Below are positions 19,232 through 26,512 of a stretch of 64,000 bases of DNA, piece by piece. The position numbers were made by a program, and so were the translations under genes. The DNA is taken from positions 5,332,001-5,396,000 of the forward strand of contig NZ_CP162005.1 in the NCBI RefSeq assembly GCF_040822065.1, in the 5' to 3' direction. The stretch's first letter is position 1. Each line of letters starts with the position of its first letter. Below the pieces are notes generated by a model. It saw only the letters and a program-made list of their open reading frames with translations. It was not told where the DNA came from and did no database searches. The DNA comes from Pedobacter sp. WC2423. GTDB lineage: Bacteria; Bacteroidota; Bacteroidia; Sphingobacteriales; Sphingobacteriaceae.

Positions 19232-19765
19232 ATGAAAAAGAAAAACAGACACAGTTTTGAATTCAAGTTATACTGTGTGAAGCAGATATCGGAACATTAT
19301 CGTTCTGCAAAATCTCTGGGTGAGGAATACGGGATTACTTATTCTCTTTTCGAAGATTGGTTTAGGATATACGAGCATCTGGGAGCTCCTGGATTACTTC
19401 CCAGAAAGGGGAAAAGAGTTTTTAGTCCATCCTTTAAGCTAGCAGTCCTGAAGTCAATTCGTGAAGAAAAGTTATCTTTGAGAGCGGCGGTGCTACGTTT
19501 TGGGCTTTCAAGTGATGCGGGAATTATCGAATGGCAGAAACGATTTGAGAAGTTTGGATCATCTGGACTAGAACCGCGACCTAAAGGAAGACTACCGATG
19601 GCATATAAGGAGAATCCAGCAAACAAGCGAAAACCGAGAAAATCGGATAGGCCACTTACCCGTGAGGAAGAGCTTTTACGGGAAAATGAATATTTACGTG
19701 CAGAGAATGCCCTGCTAAAAAAGCTCCAGGCCTTAGTTCAAGCCGAAAACAAGCGCAAGCCATAA
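19232..19765 (+). CDS. IS3-family transposase OrfA (HTH subunit)
   Basis: The 177-residue DNA-binding protein has two helix-turn-helix units (EFKLYCVKQISEHYRSAKSL and FKLAVLKSIREEKLSL) and a C-terminal leucine-zipper-like coiled coil (EEELLRENEYLRAENALLKK). It recognises the terminal repeats and multimerises with the catalytic part. Its stop overlaps the orfB ATG by one base. Confidence 0.92.
   Translation: MKKKNRHSFEFKLYCVKQISEHYRSAKSLGEEYGITYSLFEDWFRIYEHLGAPGLLPRKGKRVFSPSFKLAVLKSIREEKLSLRAAVLRFGLSSDAGIIEWQKRFEKFGSSGLEPRPKGRLPMAYKENPANKRKPRKSDRPLTREEELLRENEYLRAENALLKKLQALVQAENKRKP
19717..19723 (+). other. programmed -1 frameshift site (A6G)
   Basis: AAAAAAG is read as ctA AAA AAG in the orfA frame (Leu-Lys-Lys). 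A -1 slip enters the orfB frame, which is open for 14 codons to the orfB ATG. This is the classic IS3-family way to make the OrfAB transposase. Confidence 0.8.
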
Positions 19766-20613
19766 TGGAACTAAGGCATCAGTTCGACCTGGATACCCTG
19801 TTGAATTGTATTAGCATGGCAAGAAGTACATTTTATTATTATTCTAAGAAGGCCAGTTTGCCTGATAAATACGAACAGGTCAAGATCCAGATCAACAAGG
19901 TCTATCATGCCCATAAAGGTCGCTTCGGCTATCGGCGCATTACCTTGCAACTGAAACGGGTCGGAATGGCTATTAACCATAAGACTGTATTTAGATTGAT
20001 GGGAGAAATGAGGTTGAAGAGCCTGATCAGGATAAAAAAATACAGGTCTTATAGGGGCAAGCTAGGGAAAATAGCTCCAAATATCCTTAATAGGAATTTC
20101 AAGGCTAACCAACCTATGCAAAAATGGGCCACAGATGTTACAGAATTCAAAGTCAAGGGAAAGAAATTGTACCTCTCTCCAATAATAGACCTGTTCAATC
20201 AGGAGATTATCAGCTATGAACTCACTGACAGGCCGGTTTTCAAGGGAGTATTGGACATGCTCAAAAAAGTATTACCACAAGCTAGGAATACTTCTCAGTT
20301 AGTCTTGCATTCTGACCAGGGATGGCAATACCAGATGCCAAAGTATCAGCAACTGCTAAAAGCAAATGGGATTATCCAAAGTATGTCCAGAAAAGGTAAT
20401 TGCTTAGATAATGCTATAATTGAAAACTTTTTCGGAACCTTAAAATCGGAACTCTTCTACTTAAATGAATATGAATCGACAGATCAGCTCAAAAAAGATA
20501 TAAATGACTATATCTGGTACTACAACAAGGAACGAATAAAATTGAACTTAAACGGAATGAGCCCGATGGAATATCGGGCTCATTATAACAAATCTAATAC
20601 TAAATTTGTCTAA
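19765..20613 (+). CDS. IS3-family transposase OrfB (DDE integrase subunit)
   Basis: The 282-residue protein has an HTH_21-like N-terminal segment (GRFGYRRITLQLKR) and an rve integrase core. The catalytic triad is seen in KWATDVTEF (Asp), VLHSDQGWQYQ (Asp) and DNAIIENFFGTLKSE (Glu, 35 residues later). It cuts and joins DNA ends, mainly as the OrfAB fusion. Confidence 0.94.
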   Translation: MELRHQFDLDTLLNCISMARSTFYYYSKKASLPDKYEQVKIQINKVYHAHKGRFGYRRITLQLKRVGMAINHKTVFRLMGEMRLKSLIRIKKYRSYRGKLGKIAPNILNRNFKANQPMQKWATDVTEFKVKGKKLYLSPIIDLFNQEIISYELTDRPVFKGVLDMLKKVLPQARNTSQLVLHSDQGWQYQMPKYQQLLKANGIIQSMSRKGNCLDNAIIENFFGTLKSELFYLNEYESTDQLKKDINDYIWYYNKERIKLNLNGMSPMEYRAHYNKSNTKFV

Positions 20614-20659: not shown

Positions 20660-21094
20660 CTATTTAATTCTTTTTAAATCAAGATTACACTTTTCGCAGG
20701 TTCCATAAGCAGTTGTATTTACTGTTTTAGCGGTAAACCCTTTTGGCATCGTGCTATGTGGAACCGCAACATCCAGACAATATATTTTATTGCAGGTGGT
20801 ACAGTTGAAGTGAATGTGTTCATCGTGGTGATGATCTGCTGAACAGGAAGAAGAACAAATCGCATAATTAGCGGTTCCGTTCATATCCATAATCCGGTGC
20901 AGAATTCCTTTATCCTCATAGATGTTTAAGATGCGGTAAAGTGTTACCCTGTCAATTTCTTTGCCGAGCTTTTTCTCCAGCTCGGGTTGTGAAATGGCAA
21001 CAGTATCTAAAGCTATTTCTTCTAAAACACGAACTCTTTGTTTAGTATGTTTCAGCGCGTGTTCTTTGAGTATGTTAGTAGGATCGATTTTCAT
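20660..21094 (-). CDS. Fur-family metalloregulator, probably Zur-like
   Basis: The 144-residue protein has a winged-helix DNA-binding domain (HTKQRVRVLEEI, IDRVTLYRILNIYEDKGI) and a metal-binding dimer domain. The latter has the HHHDEHIHFNC and CNKIYC ligands and a second CxxC (YGTCEKC) near the C-terminus, giving a structural zinc site. It is the last gene of an operon with a metal-type ABC system. That neighbourhood and the palindromes at the operon's promoter suggest a zinc sensor (Zur) rather than iron Fur, but sequence alone cannot settle this. Confidence 0.85.
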   Translation of the reverse strand: MKIDPTNILKEHALKHTKQRVRVLEEIALDTVAISQPELEKKLGKEIDRVTLYRILNIYEDKGILHRIMDMNGTANYAICSSSCSADHHHDEHIHFNCTTCNKIYCLDVAVPHSTMPKGFTAKTVNTTAYGTCEKCNLDLKRIK

Positions 21095-21099
21095 GTTCG

Positions 21100-21549
21100 T
21101 TAAATTGACTTTGCATTCACTAGAGCTATTGGTGGATTATCCATTGCATTTCCGGTGCTCAGTTTCAGCGTTCCTTTGATGGTTATAGTTTGATAGGTGA
21201 ATTTAATCGGTTCAGCAAGCTCAACCATCACCATAATCGGTACGCCGTTTTTTCCGCAGAAATAACATTGATTAATCGGAAGGGTAGAAAGCATAAATTT
21301 AGTTTGTTTCATCCCATCTTTAATAGGCACTAAATATCCTTCCAGTTCAAATGGTTTGTTTGCATATTTTTTAATATCGGCATTGTAAATGGCAAACATC
21401 TGTGTATCCTTCACAATTTTAAAATCTACTCCTCCAATCACGTCCCAATTGGAAGAACTGATCTGATCATTCGGATTATGCTGAGCTTTCACTGCAAAAC
21501 CTGAAAATAGTAAAAATATAATAAGCAGTGGTTTCATTCTTATGTTCAT
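21100..21549 (-). CDS. exported DUF3299-like protein
   Basis: The 149-residue protein has a signal peptide (MKPLLIIFLLFSGFAVKAQ, from an alternative ATG at 21537). The mature part contains WDVIGGVDFKIV, PFELEGYLVPI, LPINQCYFCGK and ITIKGTLKL, which resemble DUF3299. The Cys-x-x-Cys could bind metal. Homologues occur with FtsX-like ABC transporters in zinc-regulated loci of other bacteria (ZrgD-like; from memory, to be checked). It lies 2 nt after the permease gene and 5 nt before the Fur-type gene. Confidence 0.65.
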   Translation of the reverse strand: MNIRMKPLLIIFLLFSGFAVKAQHNPNDQISSSNWDVIGGVDFKIVKDTQMFAIYNADIKKYANKPFELEGYLVPIKDGMKQTKFMLSTLPINQCYFCGKNGVPIMVMVELAEPIKFTYQTITIKGTLKLSTGNAMDNPPIALVNAKSI

Positions 21550-21551
21550 AT

Positions 21552-22781
21552 TTAGTTTTTAGACAATATCTTAGAGATATTTGACCGGTAAGCCTGCAAG
21601 GCAGGAATCACAGCTGCAAATATACCAATCGCGAGCCCGGCAACAAATAAATAAATTTCATCTTTCAGCAGGATAAAACCACTTAACCTGGCCTGACTGC
21701 TTTCCTGATAGTTTCCAATAAGTTGAAGGACTAAATGTCCCAAAACCATTCCAATAATTGTACCAGCTAAAGTAAGCAGTATTCCTTCAAAAATCACAAT
21801 ACAGAATAACTGACTTCTGGAAGCGCCCAATGTCCGCATGATGGCCAGATCGTAACTTCTTTCTTTGAGAGAATTGTACAGATTGACAAATACACTGATA
21901 GCAGCGATGAGCATAATCAGGACGGCAAACCATTGTAAGGTATCTACACCAACGCCAATAAGTGAGAATAAGCGGGTGCTTTCCATCGCAGGAGAGGCAG
22001 CTTGCAGACTGGTAGATTGATTCACCATTCTTGGAAACATCACTACAGACATTGGTGATCTGTATTGTATCAACAATGCTGTGATTTCCTTTTCATCACT
22101 GTGGTCGGTTTGATCAGGTCTGTGCTCCTGATGGTTATGATGTTCTGCAGCTTCTTCTTTTTCATGATCTTCATGCATTTTCCAGACGCTGGAAATATTA
22201 GTGAGAATCAGGTTGTCTGTGACGTTGCCCTGAGGGGCTAAAATCCCCACTACCTTATATGCATGCGTTTTGTGAATATCTGTGCTGCCTGTAAGTCCGT
22301 GGGCACCGAAAAAGGTGTCTCCAATTTTTAGTTTCTGATTGATGGCAACGGTTGAGCCTATAGTCACCTCGAAATCGGCCCTCCAGAATTTACCTGTACT
22401 GGTTTTTAGTTTATAGATACTGACGAAATTACTATCTGTACCCACGATTCTGATACCCTGGTAATTATCGCCCTGTGCTAAAGGAACAGCTTTTTTAACA
22501 AAAGGACTGCGCGCTAATTCCTGTGCCTCTTTCAATGGAATGTTTCCGGTAGGGAAGTCAATATAATAAATACTGCTCAGAATCAGTTGCAGCGGGCTCC
22601 CTTTGGCACCAACCACCAGGTCTATGTCTTTAGCATTGTTATCTAGTTTTTCCCCGATTTGCGTGGAGGCCAGAAGCAAAATTGTTAATATCCCTGTACC
22701 AAAGGCAATGAGCATAATATTTAATGCGGAAGATAATGGTTTAGACCACAGACTTTTCCAGCTGATTTTTAATGGACTCAT
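21552..22781 (-). CDS. FtsX/MacB-like ABC transporter permease with His-rich loop
   Basis: The 409-residue protein has four membrane helices: one near residues 18-40 and three in the last 140 residues, with a large periplasmic domain between. SLKERSYDLAIMRTLGASRSQLF is typical of the FtsX domain. The periplasmic region contains a run of His and acidic residues at about 200-232 (AEHHNHQEHRPDQTDHSDE), likely to bind zinc or another transition metal. The start overlaps the ATPase gene by 4 nt. It probably works with the ATPase and the DUF3299-like protein in metal handling across the envelope. Confidence 0.85.
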   Translation of the reverse strand: MSPLKISWKSLWSKPLSSALNIMLIAFGTGILTILLLASTQIGEKLDNNAKDIDLVVGAKGSPLQLILSSIYYIDFPTGNIPLKEAQELARSPFVKKAVPLAQGDNYQGIRIVGTDSNFVSIYKLKTSTGKFWRADFEVTIGSTVAINQKLKIGDTFFGAHGLTGSTDIHKTHAYKVVGILAPQGNVTDNLILTNISSVWKMHEDHEKEEAAEHHNHQEHRPDQTDHSDEKEITALLIQYRSPMSVVMFPRMVNQSTSLQAASPAMESTRLFSLIGVGVDTLQWFAVLIMLIAAISVFVNLYNSLKERSYDLAIMRTLGASRSQLFCIVIFEGILLTLAGTIIGMVLGHLVLQLIGNYQESSQARLSGFILLKDEIYLFVAGLAIGIFAAVIPALQAYRSNISKILSKN

Positions 22782-23407
22782 TTTAATTCGTAAGTATGGG
22801 TAAATGCATCTTTAACTCTTTTATCATGGGTGGCTACAATTAGTGTGGCCTGGTTTAATCCGGATTGTTGCTGCAATAATTCAAGCACAGCCTGTGCATT
22901 TTTATCGTCCAGGCTCGAAGTAGGCTCATCAGCAATTAGTAGGGCTGGTTTATTAATGACTGCCCTTGCGATAGAAACTCTTTGCAGTTGTCCCTGGCTT
23001 AATTCACTGGGATAACTGTTTTTCTTGTCTGCTATACCTAATGAAGTTAAGACCTCGTTTACTCTTTTCAAATCTTCGGGAAGACGGGCAAAACTCTGGG
23101 CCATAACGAGATTTTCTGCAATGGTCAGACTTTTAATTAAATGGGGACGCTGAAAGATAATCCCTATATTTCTTCCCCTAAACTGATCAAGTTCACGGGA
23201 GGTTAGGGAATAGATTGATGTGCCATCCATATTTACTGCTCCGGCAGCTGGTTTTAATATCCCGGTAAGGATGTGAAGCAGCGTCGTTTTTCCGCTGCCC
23301 GATTCTCCTAAAAGTAACCATTGTTCGCCATTATTGATTTCCCAGTCTTTAAATCCAATGCGGTGTGCATTGCCATAACTGTGTGAAACTGATTTGATGG
23401 ATATCAT
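22778..23407 (-). CDS. ABC transporter ATP-binding protein (LolD/MacB type)
   Basis: The 209-residue ATPase has Walker A (LLGESGSGKTTLLHIL, about 33), the Q-loop region IIFQRPHLI, the signature ELSQGQLQRVSIARA, Walker B (ALLIADEPTSSLDD) and the switch His in VATHDKRVKD. It energises the adjacent FtsX-like permease. As the first gene of the operon, it starts 26 nt downstream of a -7 box that is overlapped by a Zur-type palindrome. Confidence 0.92.
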   Translation of the reverse strand: MISIKSVSHSYGNAHRIGFKDWEINNGEQWLLLGESGSGKTTLLHILTGILKPAAGAVNMDGTSIYSLTSRELDQFRGRNIGIIFQRPHLIKSLTIAENLVMAQSFARLPEDLKRVNEVLTSLGIADKKNSYPSELSQGQLQRVSIARAVINKPALLIADEPTSSLDDKNAQAVLELLQQQSGLNQATLIVATHDKRVKDAFTHTYELK

Positions 23408-23432
23408 TTGTATAGGTCTGTTTAATTTTTAA

Positions 23433-23440
23433 CAAAAGTA
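23433..23440 (-). promoter_or_regulatory. -7 promoter box of the metal ABC operon
   Basis: On the reverse strand this reads TACTTTTG (TAnnTTTG). Its upstream edge overlaps the palindrome at 23439-23467, so a bound repressor would block RNA polymerase. Confidence 0.6.
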
Positions 23441-23467
23441 CTATATGCAAGTTTATTGCATATAGTA
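23439..23467. promoter_or_regulatory. Zur-type operator palindrome, ABC operon
   Basis: Perfect arms TACTATATGCAA and TTGCATATAGTA with spacer GTTTA. The core TGCAA-N5-TTGCA is the same as at 23539-23569 and 24877-24902. Confidence 0.78.
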
Positions 23468-23538
23468 TATATGTAAAGAGTTTGCTACTGCAATTGAATA
23501 GGTAAACGTGCTGTTTTCAGGATTGTTATTTCCTGGTA

Positions 23539-23569
23539 AATATAAATGCAATCATATTGCATTTATATT
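23539..23569. promoter_or_regulatory. Zur-type operator palindrome, COG0523 gene
   Basis: Perfect arms AATATAAATGCAAT and ATTGCATTTATATT around CAT. The central TAAATGCAAT...ATTGCATTTA resembles the Bacillus Zur box (TAAATCGTAAT and its complement). It shares the TGCAA-N5-TTGCA core with the divergent operon and lies just upstream of a -7 box. Confidence 0.8.
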
Positions 23570-23577
23570 GTTTATTC

Positions 23578-23585
23578 TATATTTG
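23578..23585 (+). promoter_or_regulatory. -7 promoter box of the COG0523 gene
   Basis: TATATTTG matches TAnnTTTG. A TTG at 23557-23559, inside the palindrome, lies 18 nt upstream, so the operator covers the -33 region. Confidence 0.6.
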
Positions 23586-23615
23586 CAACTTGATTGCATT
23601 ATATATACACATAAA

Positions 23616-24821
23616 ATGAAAACTAAATTATTACCTGTAACTGTACTCAGTGGGTTTCTTGGAAGTGGGAAAACTACGTTGTTAAATCATATTCTCCATA
23701 ATAAACAAAACTTGCGGGTAGCGTTGATTGTCAATGATATGGGCGAAATAAATATTGATGCAAATGCAGTTCACCGGGAAAATATGTTATCCCGGACGGA
23801 AGAGAAATTGGTAGAAATGAGTAATGGTTGTATTTGCTGTACACTTCGGGAAGATTTGATTGCTGAAGTAGAGAAGCTTGCGAAGGAAGACCGGTTTGAT
23901 TACCTGATTATTGAAAGTACCGGGATTTCTGAGCCTGTTCCGGTGGCGCAAACGTTCAGTTATGTAGATCTGGCCATGAATATTGACTTAAGTAAGTTTA
24001 GTAAACTGGATACGATGGTGACCGTGGTGGACTGTTTTAATTTTAAGAAAGATTTTGGTACCAATGAATTGCTGGTGGACAGGGGATGGGTGGATGATAC
24101 GGCAGATCGCCGGACTATAGTCAATTTGTTAACAGATCAGATTGAGTTTGCGAATGTAATTATCCTGAATAAAACAGATCTGGTTTCTGCAGAAGATTTA
24201 TTGCTGTTGAAAGCTGTGATCCGGAAATTGAATCCTTCAGCTAAATTAATTGATACTTCTTTTAGCAAGGTCGATTTGAAAGAGATACTGCATACTGGCT
24301 TGTTTGATTTTGAAGAGGCCTCACAAGGGGCTGGCTGGATTAAAGAGTTAAATGCAGCGCATCTGCCCGAAACTGAAGAGTATGGGATCAGCAGCACAGT
24401 ATTTCGTTCTTCCAAACCTTTTCATCCGGAACGTTTATGGGATTATCTGACTCAACAATTCCCTCCGAATGTAATCAGAACAAAGGGATTGTTCTGGTTA
24501 GCGGCTATGCCAGACCGTGCTTTGAATTTTTCGCAGGCGGGTGGATCACTGCGGGTTGAGAGTGCCGGAACCTGGTGGGCAAGTATGCTGCCTTCTGAAA
24601 GATTGAATTACCAGGATTTTACGGAGAACAGAAAAGAAATTGAGAACCGCTGGGATAAGCGTTATGGTGACCGGATGAATGAGCTGGTATTTATTGCGCA
24701 GGATCTTCAGAAAGAGCAATTGCACCAGGACTTAAATGCTTGTTTGCTGACTGTGGAAGAAGAGCTCCAGCAGCAGAATAAAGAGGTATTTGCTAATCCT
24801 TTTGAAAATGTAATTCAATAA
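23616..24821 (+). CDS. COG0523 (CobW/ZigA-type) GTP-binding metallochaperone
   Basis: The 401-residue G3E GTPase has Walker A GFLGSGKTTLLNHIL (residues 13-27), the metal motif CxCC in GCICCTLRED (Cys72, 74, 75), the switch region YLIIESTGISEP, and NKTD for guanine recognition, plus a CobW C-terminal domain. Zur-controlled members (ZigA, YciC, ZNG1) deliver zinc to client enzymes during deficiency. A Zur-type palindrome directly before the promoter supports that role here. ATG 23616 is chosen because it lies after the promoter; the longer frame from 23508 runs through the operator. Confidence 0.9.
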   Translation: MKTKLLPVTVLSGFLGSGKTTLLNHILHNKQNLRVALIVNDMGEINIDANAVHRENMLSRTEEKLVEMSNGCICCTLREDLIAEVEKLAKEDRFDYLIIESTGISEPVPVAQTFSYVDLAMNIDLSKFSKLDTMVTVVDCFNFKKDFGTNELLVDRGWVDDTADRRTIVNLLTDQIEFANVIILNKTDLVSAEDLLLLKAVIRKLNPSAKLIDTSFSKVDLKEILHTGLFDFEEASQGAGWIKELNAAHLPETEEYGISSTVFRSSKPFHPERLWDYLTQQFPPNVIRTKGLFWLAAMPDRALNFSQAGGSLRVESAGTWWASMLPSERLNYQDFTENRKEIENRWDKRYGDRMNELVFIAQDLQKEQLHQDLNACLLTVEEELQQQNKEVFANPFENVIQ

Positions 24822-24876
24822 CGGGTGATCAGCAGCCTGCTTTTGTAATGAATTGGTTACAGGCCTGTATTATTAA

Positions 24877-24917
24877 TGCAATATAGTTGCAATTGTGTTG
24901 CGTTAATAGTATATTTG
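24877..24917 (+). promoter_or_regulatory. two overlapping Zur-type cores plus -7 box
   Basis: TGCAA-TATAG-TTGCA (24877-24891) overlaps TGCAA-TTGTG-TTGCG (24888-24902). TATATTTG (24910-24917) follows, with TTG 20 nt upstream. The arrangement repeats that of the COG0523 promoter and points downstream, to the esterase gene at 25043. Confidence 0.65.
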
Positions 24918-24942
24918 ATCTTCATTATTTAGTTAATAGGTA

Positions 24943-24984
24943 AGCACTTGTAACGGGATTCATCACCCTGTTACAGTGCTTTTA
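24943..24984 (+). terminator. terminator-like hairpin in the esterase leader
   Basis: AAGCACTTGTAACGGG and CCCTGTTACAGTGCTTTT pair with small bulges and are followed by AAATTTT. It lies between the putative promoter at 24910 and the gene at 25043. It could be an attenuator, or the terminator of the COG0523 gene. Confidence 0.5.
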
Positions 24985-25042
24985 AATTTTAATATCCGAT
25001 CATACGCGTATATTAGGGGTTTAATCAATTCTCTAAATCGTT

Positions 25043-26512
25043 ATGATCAAAAAGATATGCTACTTACTATCTTTCTTCCTTGTTTTTGCTTTAAATAGTT
25101 TTTCACAGCAATTTAAAGTGGCTTTTTCTCCAGCTTCATTAAACCGTCCTTTTACAGGAAAGGTTTTTCTGTACTTATCAAAGAATAATCCTGAGCCCTT
25201 AACTGCATCTATTGGTATTGAGCCATTAAATTGTTTTGCTGTGGAAGTTAAAGGGATTAAACCTGGTGAAAGCGTGGTTATTGACGATCTGGCAACTGCA
25301 TATCCAGTGCTACCTTCAGAAATGGAGCGTGGAACTTATTATATTCAGGCAGTATGGGATTTAAATCTGGGTGGAAGAGCTATTGAAGCGAGTCCGGGTA
25401 ATATATTTAGTCACCCGCAAAAAATAGTGATTGGTAAAGATTTAAAGCAGTCTTTTACTTTACTGGCCGATCAGGTGGTTCCTGAACAGGTTTTTCAGGA
25501 AACAGAATTGATTAAAGAATTTAAAGCTCCTTCCAAATTATTGAGTGATTTTTACCAGAAAAAGTTTACAATAGATGCAGCCGTTCAGTTGCCTGCTGAA
25601 TATTATAAAAATCCGTCGGCTAAATTTCCTGTACTGTTTGTCGTGACTGGTTTTGGCGGTGATCATCACTACATGGCTGTAACGGGCAAATTGCCTTCAG
25701 TAATTGGTACTACGCCGGTGATCCGGGTATTTCTGGATGGTAATTGTGCTTTGGGGCATTCGGCCTACGCCAATAGTGATAACAATGGCCCCTGGGGAGA
25801 TGCACTGACCCGGGAATTTATTCCTTTGCTGGAAAAGCAGTATCGCTGTAATGGGGCAAGATTATTAACGGGTCATAGTAGTGGAGGCTGGTCTGTTTTA
25901 TGGTTACAAACGCATTATCCGAAGCTGTTCGTGGCTACGGCTTCCAGTAGTCCTGATTATGTGGATTTCCGTAAGTTTCTGAATGTCAATTTATATAAAG
26001 ATAGTAACCTGTTTTATGATGCTAAGGGGCGGCTCAATCCAGGGGGAACGGTGGCTGGCAGATTTCCTTTTTCTTATTTGAAAGAAATGTACCAGGTGGA
26101 AAATGTAATTTCAAGGGGGGAGCAGCAGCGGTCTTTTGAAGCAGTATTCAGTAAAAAAGGGAATGATGGATTGCCGGAGTCAATTTGTGATCCTCAAACA
26201 GGGCTGATCAATCAGCATACTGTTGAAAATTGGAAAAAATATGATATTTCTTTATACCTGAGAGACAACTGGAAAGATTTAAGTAAAGATCTGAATGGAA
26301 AAATACGGATATCAATAGGTGATGAGGATAATTTTATGCTGAATTATCCGGTCAGGTTAATGAATGAGGAAATGAAAGCGGTACAGGCAGATATGCTTTT
26401 TAAATATTATCCGGGAGATCATTTTACGGTAAAGACAACAGCATATCTGGCTGATTTGTCTGGCTTCCTTGAAGAAAGATATAAGCAATGGCTGCTTCAG
26501 AAAAAGAAATAG
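25043..26512 (+). CDS. secreted alpha/beta-hydrolase esterase
   Basis: The 489-residue protein has a signal peptide (MIKKICYLLSFFLVFALNSF, cleaved after about SFS). A beta-rich N-terminal domain (25-150) precedes an esterase domain of the D type, with FPVLFVVTGFGGDHHY, the nucleophile elbow TGHSSGGW, and PGDHFT near the C-terminus supplying the catalytic His. Such enzymes hydrolyse ester-linked substrates (siderophores, feruloyl groups); the substrate here is unknown. The upstream pair of Zur-type sites raises the possibility of metal-dependent expression and of a role in metallophore processing, which is inference only. Confidence 0.82.
   Translation: MIKKICYLLSFFLVFALNSFSQQFKVAFSPASLNRPFTGKVFLYLSKNNPEPLTASIGIEPLNCFAVEVKGIKPGESVVIDDLATAYPVLPSEMERGTYYIQAVWDLNLGGRAIEASPGNIFSHPQKIVIGKDLKQSFTLLADQVVPEQVFQETELIKEFKAPSKLLSDFYQKKFTIDAAVQLPAEYYKNPSAKFPVLFVVTGFGGDHHYMAVTGKLPSVIGTTPVIRVFLDGNCALGHSAYANSDNNGPWGDALTREFIPLLEKQYRCNGARLLTGHSSGGWSVLWLQTHYPKLFVATASSSPDYVDFRKFLNVNLYKDSNLFYDAKGRLNPGGTVAGRFPFSYLKEMYQVENVISRGEQQRSFEAVFSKKGNDGLPESICDPQTGLINQHTVENWKKYDISLYLRDNWKDLSKDLNGKIRISIGDEDNFMLNYPVRLMNEEMKAVQADMLFKYYPGDHFTVKTTAYLADLSGFLEERYKQWLLQKKK

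Follow-up and report, generated by a model that had tools for sequence, protein, structure and literature searches.

Introduction

The Zur regulons of Escherichia coli, Bacillus subtilis and Pseudomonas combine a Fur-family regulator with palindromic sites, two features that they share with the locus described here. COG0523 genes are Zur targets elsewhere, PA4066 of Pseudomonas aeruginosa is a DUF3299 protein, and the small RNA RyhB of E. coli is under Fur control.

Published papers list 7-1-7 palindromes, the form also taken by TGCAA-N5-TTGCA, among the Zur-box forms (PMC6103462) and link COG0523 proteins to zinc homeostasis (PMC2770081). The latter contains none of the terms TGCAA, Bacteroidetes, Bacteroides or Flavobacter, and Cytophaga occurs in it once, in a UreG table. 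For P. aeruginosa, PMC10393844 describes PA4063-PA4066 as an ABC transporter that is expressed in zinc scarcity and includes a pair of unusual periplasmic proteins, and reports a conserved Zur box for PA4063 in most Pseudomonas groups. Among open-licence papers we found no published Zur box for Bacteroidota.

At the RNA level, RyhB of E. coli and FsrA of B. subtilis are iron-starvation small RNAs that turn down metal enzymes, FsrA being regulated by Fur; a 2016 paper (PMC5007448) sets this iron sparing against zinc, stating that B. subtilis was not known to have an analogous sparing response. Further reports describe RNA-level repression by zinc-regulated transcripts for yeast ADH (PMC5007448) and Zur-dependent, RNA-mediated repression of a ribosomal-protein paralogue in E. 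coli, the L31 switch (PMC9825181), whereas small RNA intermediates between Hfq and Zur appear as speculation only (PMC5458458). No Zur-controlled or zinc-sparing small RNA was found among open-licence papers.

Here we analyzed a window of 64,000 nucleotides from Pedobacter sp. WC2423, for which an initial annotation had proposed a Zur-like regulon with one operator shared by three promoters, including that of a secreted esterase. The locus differs from known Zur regulons in its core, TGCAA-N5-TTGCA, and in its regulator, which scores 27.9 bits against the NCBIfam Zur model (cut-off 167). It resembles PA4063-PA4066 in having an ABC transporter system, with a DUF3299 match in the window operon that stays below the cut-off, and departs from it by a MerC-like gene that is added in 7 of 20 neighbourhoods. 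Compared with RyhB and FsrA, zinc would take the place of iron, and the candidate RNA has no Rfam match. With the L31 paralogue switch, the proposed circuit would share zinc, Zur and repression at the RNA level (PMC9825181, PMC6162548). As described there, the E. coli L31 and yeast cases act through a ribosomal-protein mRNA or through neighbouring or overlapping transcripts, whereas here a separate small RNA would lie under a Zur operator.

Results

Genes of the cluster

The Fur-type protein that had been placed at 20660-21094 (minus strand, 144 aa) is real, as it scores 35.1 bits against Pfam FUR (cut-off 23.1). It contains HHHDEHIHF and two C-x2-C pairs (98/101 and 133/136), as well as Cys80 and Cys84, and sequence searches match it to Fur and Zur chains of solved structure, such as 2o03 (E 0.0048). 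The HxH and Cys pairs typical of metal-sensing Fur proteins are present, and H93, H95, C98, C101, C133 and C136 are invariant in an alignment of 13 Fur-family proteins that takes in the two other members of this genome, which has three Fur-family genes in all. We term the protein Zur-like; besides the NCBIfam Zur model, it also remains under the cut-offs of the NCBIfam Fur and PerR models.

The same strand encodes an exported protein weakly related to DUF3299 (21100-21549; Pfam E 0.09, below the cut-off, as are its relatives in the same place with E 0.041, 0.16 and 0.00077), an FtsX/MacB-type permease (21552-22781; FtsX 68.7 bits, MacB_PCD 42.8 bits) and an ABC ATPase (22778-23407; ABC_tran 122.3 bits), which together with zur form the ABC-zur operon. 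On the plus strand, 23616-24821 encodes a COG0523 metallochaperone GTPase of 401 aa (Pfam cobW 191.1 bits). This protein scores 536.2 bits over its whole length against the NCBIfam ZigA model (NF038288), the next model reaching 185.9 bits, and because the cut-off of 600 is not attained we call it ZigA-like. Its closest named ZigA relative among the matches listed is that of Pedobacter steynii (79%).

A transposase pair, which we take to be of the IS3 type, occupies 19232-20613 between an FKBP-like gene and zur, and matches Pfam HTH and rve. Since the FKBP-like gene and zur are adjacent without this pair in another genome (G120, locus L101), the element probably arrived later.

Operator sites in the window

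A motif scan bore out the shared TGCAA-N5-TTGCA operator and both long palindromes: exact copies start at 23446, 23547, 23584 and 24877. All the sites listed earlier were found among the matches, and one operator, at 23584, had been overlooked. The four exact copies lie within 1.45 kb, just upstream of the operon with the Fur-type gene. The whole genome (5.98 Mb) holds 17, corresponding to 0.004 expected per 1.45 kb, and the cluster is therefore no accident. Since the motif at up to two mismatches is not enriched across the whole window (47 found versus 55.06 expected), it is the clustering of the exact copies that counts.

Operator 1 (23446-23460, TGCAAGTTTATTGCA) lies inside a 29-base palindrome (23439-23467; 12-base arms, 5-base spacer) that adjoins TACTTTTG (23433-23440, minus strand), the predicted -7 box of the ABC-zur operon, which fits TAnnTTTG, the Bacteroidota -7 consensus. 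Operator 2 (23547-23561, TGCAATCATATTGCA), upstream of the ZigA-like gene and kept in relatives, is part of a palindrome at 23539-23569 with arms of 14 bases and a spacer of 3, as read off the sequence; the putative -7 box of this gene, TATATTTG (23578-23585, plus strand), lies 3' of the palindrome and is overlapped at its end by operator 3 (23584-23598, TGCAACTTGATTGCA). Operator 4 (24877-24902, TGCAATATAGTTGCA and TGCAATTGTGTTGCG) consists of two overlapping cores 11 bp apart, the exact one and a 1-mismatch copy at 24888 that have a half-site in common. Beside it is a second TATATTTG box (24910-24917, plus strand), that of a candidate small RNA gene.

The 13 other exact copies of the genome comprise 8 within genes, which we take as chance, and 5 outside genes (L003, L004, L006, L009 and L011). 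At L011 (1501-1515) the motif precedes a gene that its sequence suggests to be lgt-like, and 1-mismatch copies stand ahead of lgt-zur pairs in two other genomes (L106 at 554, G073; L120 at 553, G052). At L009 (1501-1515) it precedes an HExxH metalloprotease gene (SSHEIGHTLGLPHNF). The L003 copy (1501-1515) lies before a thioredoxin-reductase-like FAD enzyme, with a short open frame between, and in another genome (G044, L054 at 10350) the motif comes before a run of genes for a MerC-like protein, a thioredoxin-reductase-like FAD enzyme and Zur. Some 55 bases downstream of the L004 copy (1501-1515) comes the gene of a small exported protein rich in Cys and His, which is followed by an efflux gene, presumably CzcA-type. 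Elsewhere in the genome, L019 (1447-1869) encodes a second Zur-like protein before a His-rich gene that we take to be P-type-ATPase-like, with a 1-mismatch motif at 1872.

Conservation of the operator

The motif, allowing one mismatch, lies upstream of ZigA in 20 of the 21 relatives retrieved by the family search, and of none of eight distant COG0523 paralogues. When these 21 loci were read together with the 29 best new ones of a genus search, 49 of the 50 had the motif within 600 bp (43 exactly), and neighbouring sites 37-40 bp apart recurred 28 times. Among 80 named ZigA loci, the motif occurs within 500 bp at up to one mismatch in 42 (30 exact; background 0.06 per window) and is missing from 38 at these settings. 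Nearly all titles of these 80 loci name Bacteroidota, and the three that name other groups (L213, L215 and L229) are perhaps contamination.

ABC and FtsX genes divergent from ZigA, with the motif between, were found in 8 of 20 wider neighbourhoods. Seven of these eight also have a gene in front that we presume to be MerC-like, and in two of the eight zur ends the gene run. A site lies near a gene start in 9 of 30 zur-centred loci (L103, L105, L106, L111, L116, L120, L121, L124 and L128); the other 21 have no site or only intragenic ones, and some loci end before the start of the operon. The 20 motif-bearing ZigA relatives all have a match to the window-type Zur with at least 49% identity. The sole motif-less relative (G008, 76% complete) has none, a joint absence that weighs little because 88 of 121 genomes have some Zur match.

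The proposed Zur-like regulon and its site are thus well supported, the motif being conserved before ZigA and standing ahead of ABC operons and some zur genes in relatives, and TGCAA-N5-TTGCA is very probably the operator of a Zur-type repressor, that is, a zinc-sensing member of the Fur family. Zinc would be the signal and Zur the protein that binds the sites. The site of the COG0523 gene had been likened to a known Zur box, which holds for its 7-1-7 form only; open-licence papers yielded no published Bacteroidota box.

A candidate small RNA gene behind the fourth operator

At operator 4, a conserved unit of about 70 nt joins operator and promoter to the 5' stretch UUCAUUAUUUAGUU and a hairpin that covaries; it is present in 14 of 145 genus genomes and, more weakly, in one more. 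The candidate small RNA gene within it spans 24921-24990 (plus strand) by ends that we infer, its conservation being seen with both blastn and a covariance model. The 5' seed TTCATTATTTAGTT (24921-24934, plus strand) is identical in 13 of the 14 distinct genomes, with one mismatch in G138, and a terminator-like hairpin with the loop TCATCA follows (24942-24981, plus strand; -20 kcal/mol, z -4.54), then T-rich sequence. A simple terminator scan did not include this hairpin in its list.

A blastn search with 24822-25042 against the 145 genomes matched 15 others. The match continued as far as the esterase in three (G135, G133 and G132), covered just the operator/promoter/hairpin block (~24866-24992) in G136, G209, G134, G161, G168, G226 and G120, and was shorter in G190, G138 and G139; G188 and G130 gave short pieces that were not counted, and G130, once aligned, shows no unit. 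The exact operator core is found upstream of the small RNA in 14/14 genomes, a presence that is partly due to selection as the query included the operator, and TAnnTTTG in 13/14 (not G138). The gene 3' of the unit is the esterase in the near clade (L159-L166), convergent in L167-L170 and L173, and another co-directional gene in L171.

The loop TCATCA is retained in 13 of the 14 genomes, in a hairpin whose sequence varies. In the alignment, 89.5% of cells are paired in the named hairpin and 7 pairs are changed on both sides, versus 2.6 in shuffles, counts that lean towards this structure since it was named from the window's own sequence. Its covariation is 0.297, versus at most 0.143 when the structure is slid along. 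RNAalifold alone gave no fold for the RNA alignment. A first covariance model (R1) came out as sequence-only, and the second (R2) was built on the transcript alone, with no operator inside. Searched through the genus with stricter filters, which lose weak matches, R2 recovers the 14 genomes and a fifteenth, G165 (E 0.0023), where an exact operator lies upstream, the seed is diverged and the loop is kept. Marginal R2 hits in G207, G071, G178 and G154 (E 0.03-0.48) were left out of the RNA genomes, and the single R2 match in the 80 named ZigA loci (E 2.7) was taken as chance. An Rfam covariance search of 23300-25200 up to E 1 returned only rox2 (E 0.44; 23543-23602, other strand).

In G249, the place of the small RNA (L137, 2705-2834) holds the box TATATTTG and a degenerate operator, with neither seed nor hairpin; the start of the M28 peptidase gene considered below does not pair with the seed in this genome (5 mismatches). 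This locus is possibly a decayed copy of the small RNA.

From operator, promoter and hairpin, we consider it likely that the conserved unit is transcribed as a Zur-repressed small RNA.

The M28 peptidase as predicted target

Read as its reverse complement, AACTAAATAATGAA, the seed can span a start codon. In a first search of eight RNA genomes, a single exact copy beyond the RNA gene itself turned up in seven, and in five of them it falls on the start codon of one M28 peptidase (the window's genome, G000, as well as G133, G135, G120 and G226). Seven further genomes gave six exact copies, one of them at M28 (G161), for a total of 6 of 13. Genome-wide, seed sites with up to one mismatch show no general excess over the reversed pattern. 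The peptidase matches the M28 metallopeptidase family (Pfam 110 bits) and presumably has the zinc site of that family.

Allowing 0-2 mismatches, the seed matches the M28 start in 11 of 14 RNA genomes tested, versus 2 of 55 others. The latter comprise 18 genomes returned as loci (none pairing) and 37 picked (two pairing, G180 and G162, with 2 mismatches each), out of the 145, and include the marginal G154 and G071 as well as G130 and G188 with their short blastn pieces. For want of a locatable M28 start, G169 was dropped, and G209 (84% complete) carries the RNA but no M28 orthologue. In G132, G134 and G136, the single change at the M28 start retains a G-U pair. In G226 and G120, the 14-mer is the same as in the window's genome and the bases upstream differ, as read off the alignment, so that on the upstream side the similarity does not reach past the seed site. 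The three RNA genomes without pairing are G138, G190 (perfect seed) and G165 (diverged seed).

Duplex energies overlap between the two sets, those of RNA genomes ranging from -10.9 to -18.1 kcal/mol, with -16.6 in the RNA-less G179 and -11 to -13 in several others. Mapping the RNA onto a tree of 49 M28 proteins requires 7 changes, and the independent pairs are 4-5 concordant, 0 opposed and 2-3 undecided (sign test median p 0.0625, range to 0.125). Agreement between M28 start and RNA is seen in five lineages.

Sampling 376 gene starts over ~456 kb of the window's genome, we found one, that of a presumed EamA-type permease, that pairs better than M28 (-16.1 versus -14.5). This start lies just outside the window (G000:C1:5331873; ACCTAAATAATGAA) and also pairs well with the seed in G132. 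The start of a 276-aa protein in the window's genome matches the seed with one mismatch, and no second clear target emerged among the extra seed sites of this genome. An alkaline phosphatase of the PafA type, whose best match of solved structure is 5tj3 (E 5.9e-149) and which is presumably a zinc enzyme, was rejected as a general target: its leader has the exact 14-mer in three genomes of one clade, and 4 mismatches in the window's genome.

As judged from complementarity, the chances that the M28 peptidase mRNA is the target that the RNA represses appear about even.

Alternative explanations

A different member of the Fur family, for instance the Zur-like protein of L019, or an unrelated repressor might recognize the operator. 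The genome does hold three Fur-family genes, and the L019 protein is 40% identical to that of the window and has its 1-mismatch site just after its own gene, but it is the window regulator that sits within a regulated operon, 9/30 loci have sites close to where an orthologous zur gene or its operon begins, and the window-type Zur accompanies the motif in all 20 motif-bearing relatives (at least 49% identity) and is missing along with it from the motif-less one. Another reader is accordingly unlikely. Zur of the window, then, is the preferred reader, and the question becomes what operator 4 controls. That it drives the esterase gene (25043-26512, plus strand), with the hairpin as a leader or attenuator, would fit an operator and promoter that point at this gene, which lies downstream of the hairpin, and an order that is kept in seven near relatives (L160-L166), where the esterase does come after the operator and read-through is possible. 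Set against this, none of the 8 esterase relatives that the family search gave, four of them 52-56% and four 33-39% identical, has the motif upstream. In L167-L170 and L173, moreover, the RNA unit is kept although a convergent gene comes next, and a T run follows the hairpin. The esterase, which had been singled out as an unexpected regulon member, was therefore rejected as a Zur target, lacking conservation outside the near clade and being separated from the operator by hairpin and T run, and the reading in which it is driven by operator 4 is improbable.

Still without a small RNA, the block could be the ZigA terminator plus a Zur site, the 5' stretch belonging to the DNA-binding site instead of being a seed. 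Such an arrangement would explain why the block comes after ZigA in 12 of 14 genomes; G120 and G138, however, have the unit with no ZigA match, there divergent from a MerC-like gene, and the invariant stretch begins 3 bases past the -7 box, where a transcript would start, its 14 bases being complementary to M28 starts. We hold this, too, to be unlikely, and prefer a Zur-repressed small RNA. Its target is a separate matter. The RNA may exist and answer to Zur while acting on other mRNAs, or through its loop UCAUCA, and not on M28, an appreciable possibility if not the favoured one: the M28 starts of G190, G138 and G165 do not fit, a pafA-like alkaline phosphatase gene has the exact 14-mer in its leader in G136, G161 and G209, and in G165 it is the loop that is retained as the seed diverges. 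What speaks for M28 is the contrast between 11/14 and 2/55 genomes, spread over five lineages.

Discussion

We regard as reasonably probable the scheme as a whole, in which Zur operators are joined to a Zur-repressed small RNA and its M28 target. With zinc present, Zur would occupy the promoter-overlapping sites and keep three units off: the ABC/FtsX/DUF3299-like/zur operon, which includes the repressor's own gene, the gene of the ZigA metallochaperone, and that of the small RNA, which lies between ZigA and the esterase. All three units would be made once zinc drops. The RNA of ~70 nt, with its predicted open 5' seed and terminator hairpin, would most likely pair through the seed with mRNA start codons, the best supported being that of the exported M28 zinc peptidase, and this pairing would block translation and thereby spare zinc.

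By analogy with RyhB, a zinc-sparing role for the RNA is plausible. The fuller proposal remains tentative, its chances falling somewhat short of even: the Zur-repressed RNA would constitute a zinc-sparing response, its seed covering the start of the secreted M28 peptidase and also, in some members of the clade, the PafA-type phosphatase leader, so that zinc would be left for essential proteins. If this is true, the locus would represent a compact circuit for sparing zinc in a phylum on whose zinc regulation the open-licence literature says little, and its operator would provide a Zur box with which Bacteroidota genomes can be annotated.
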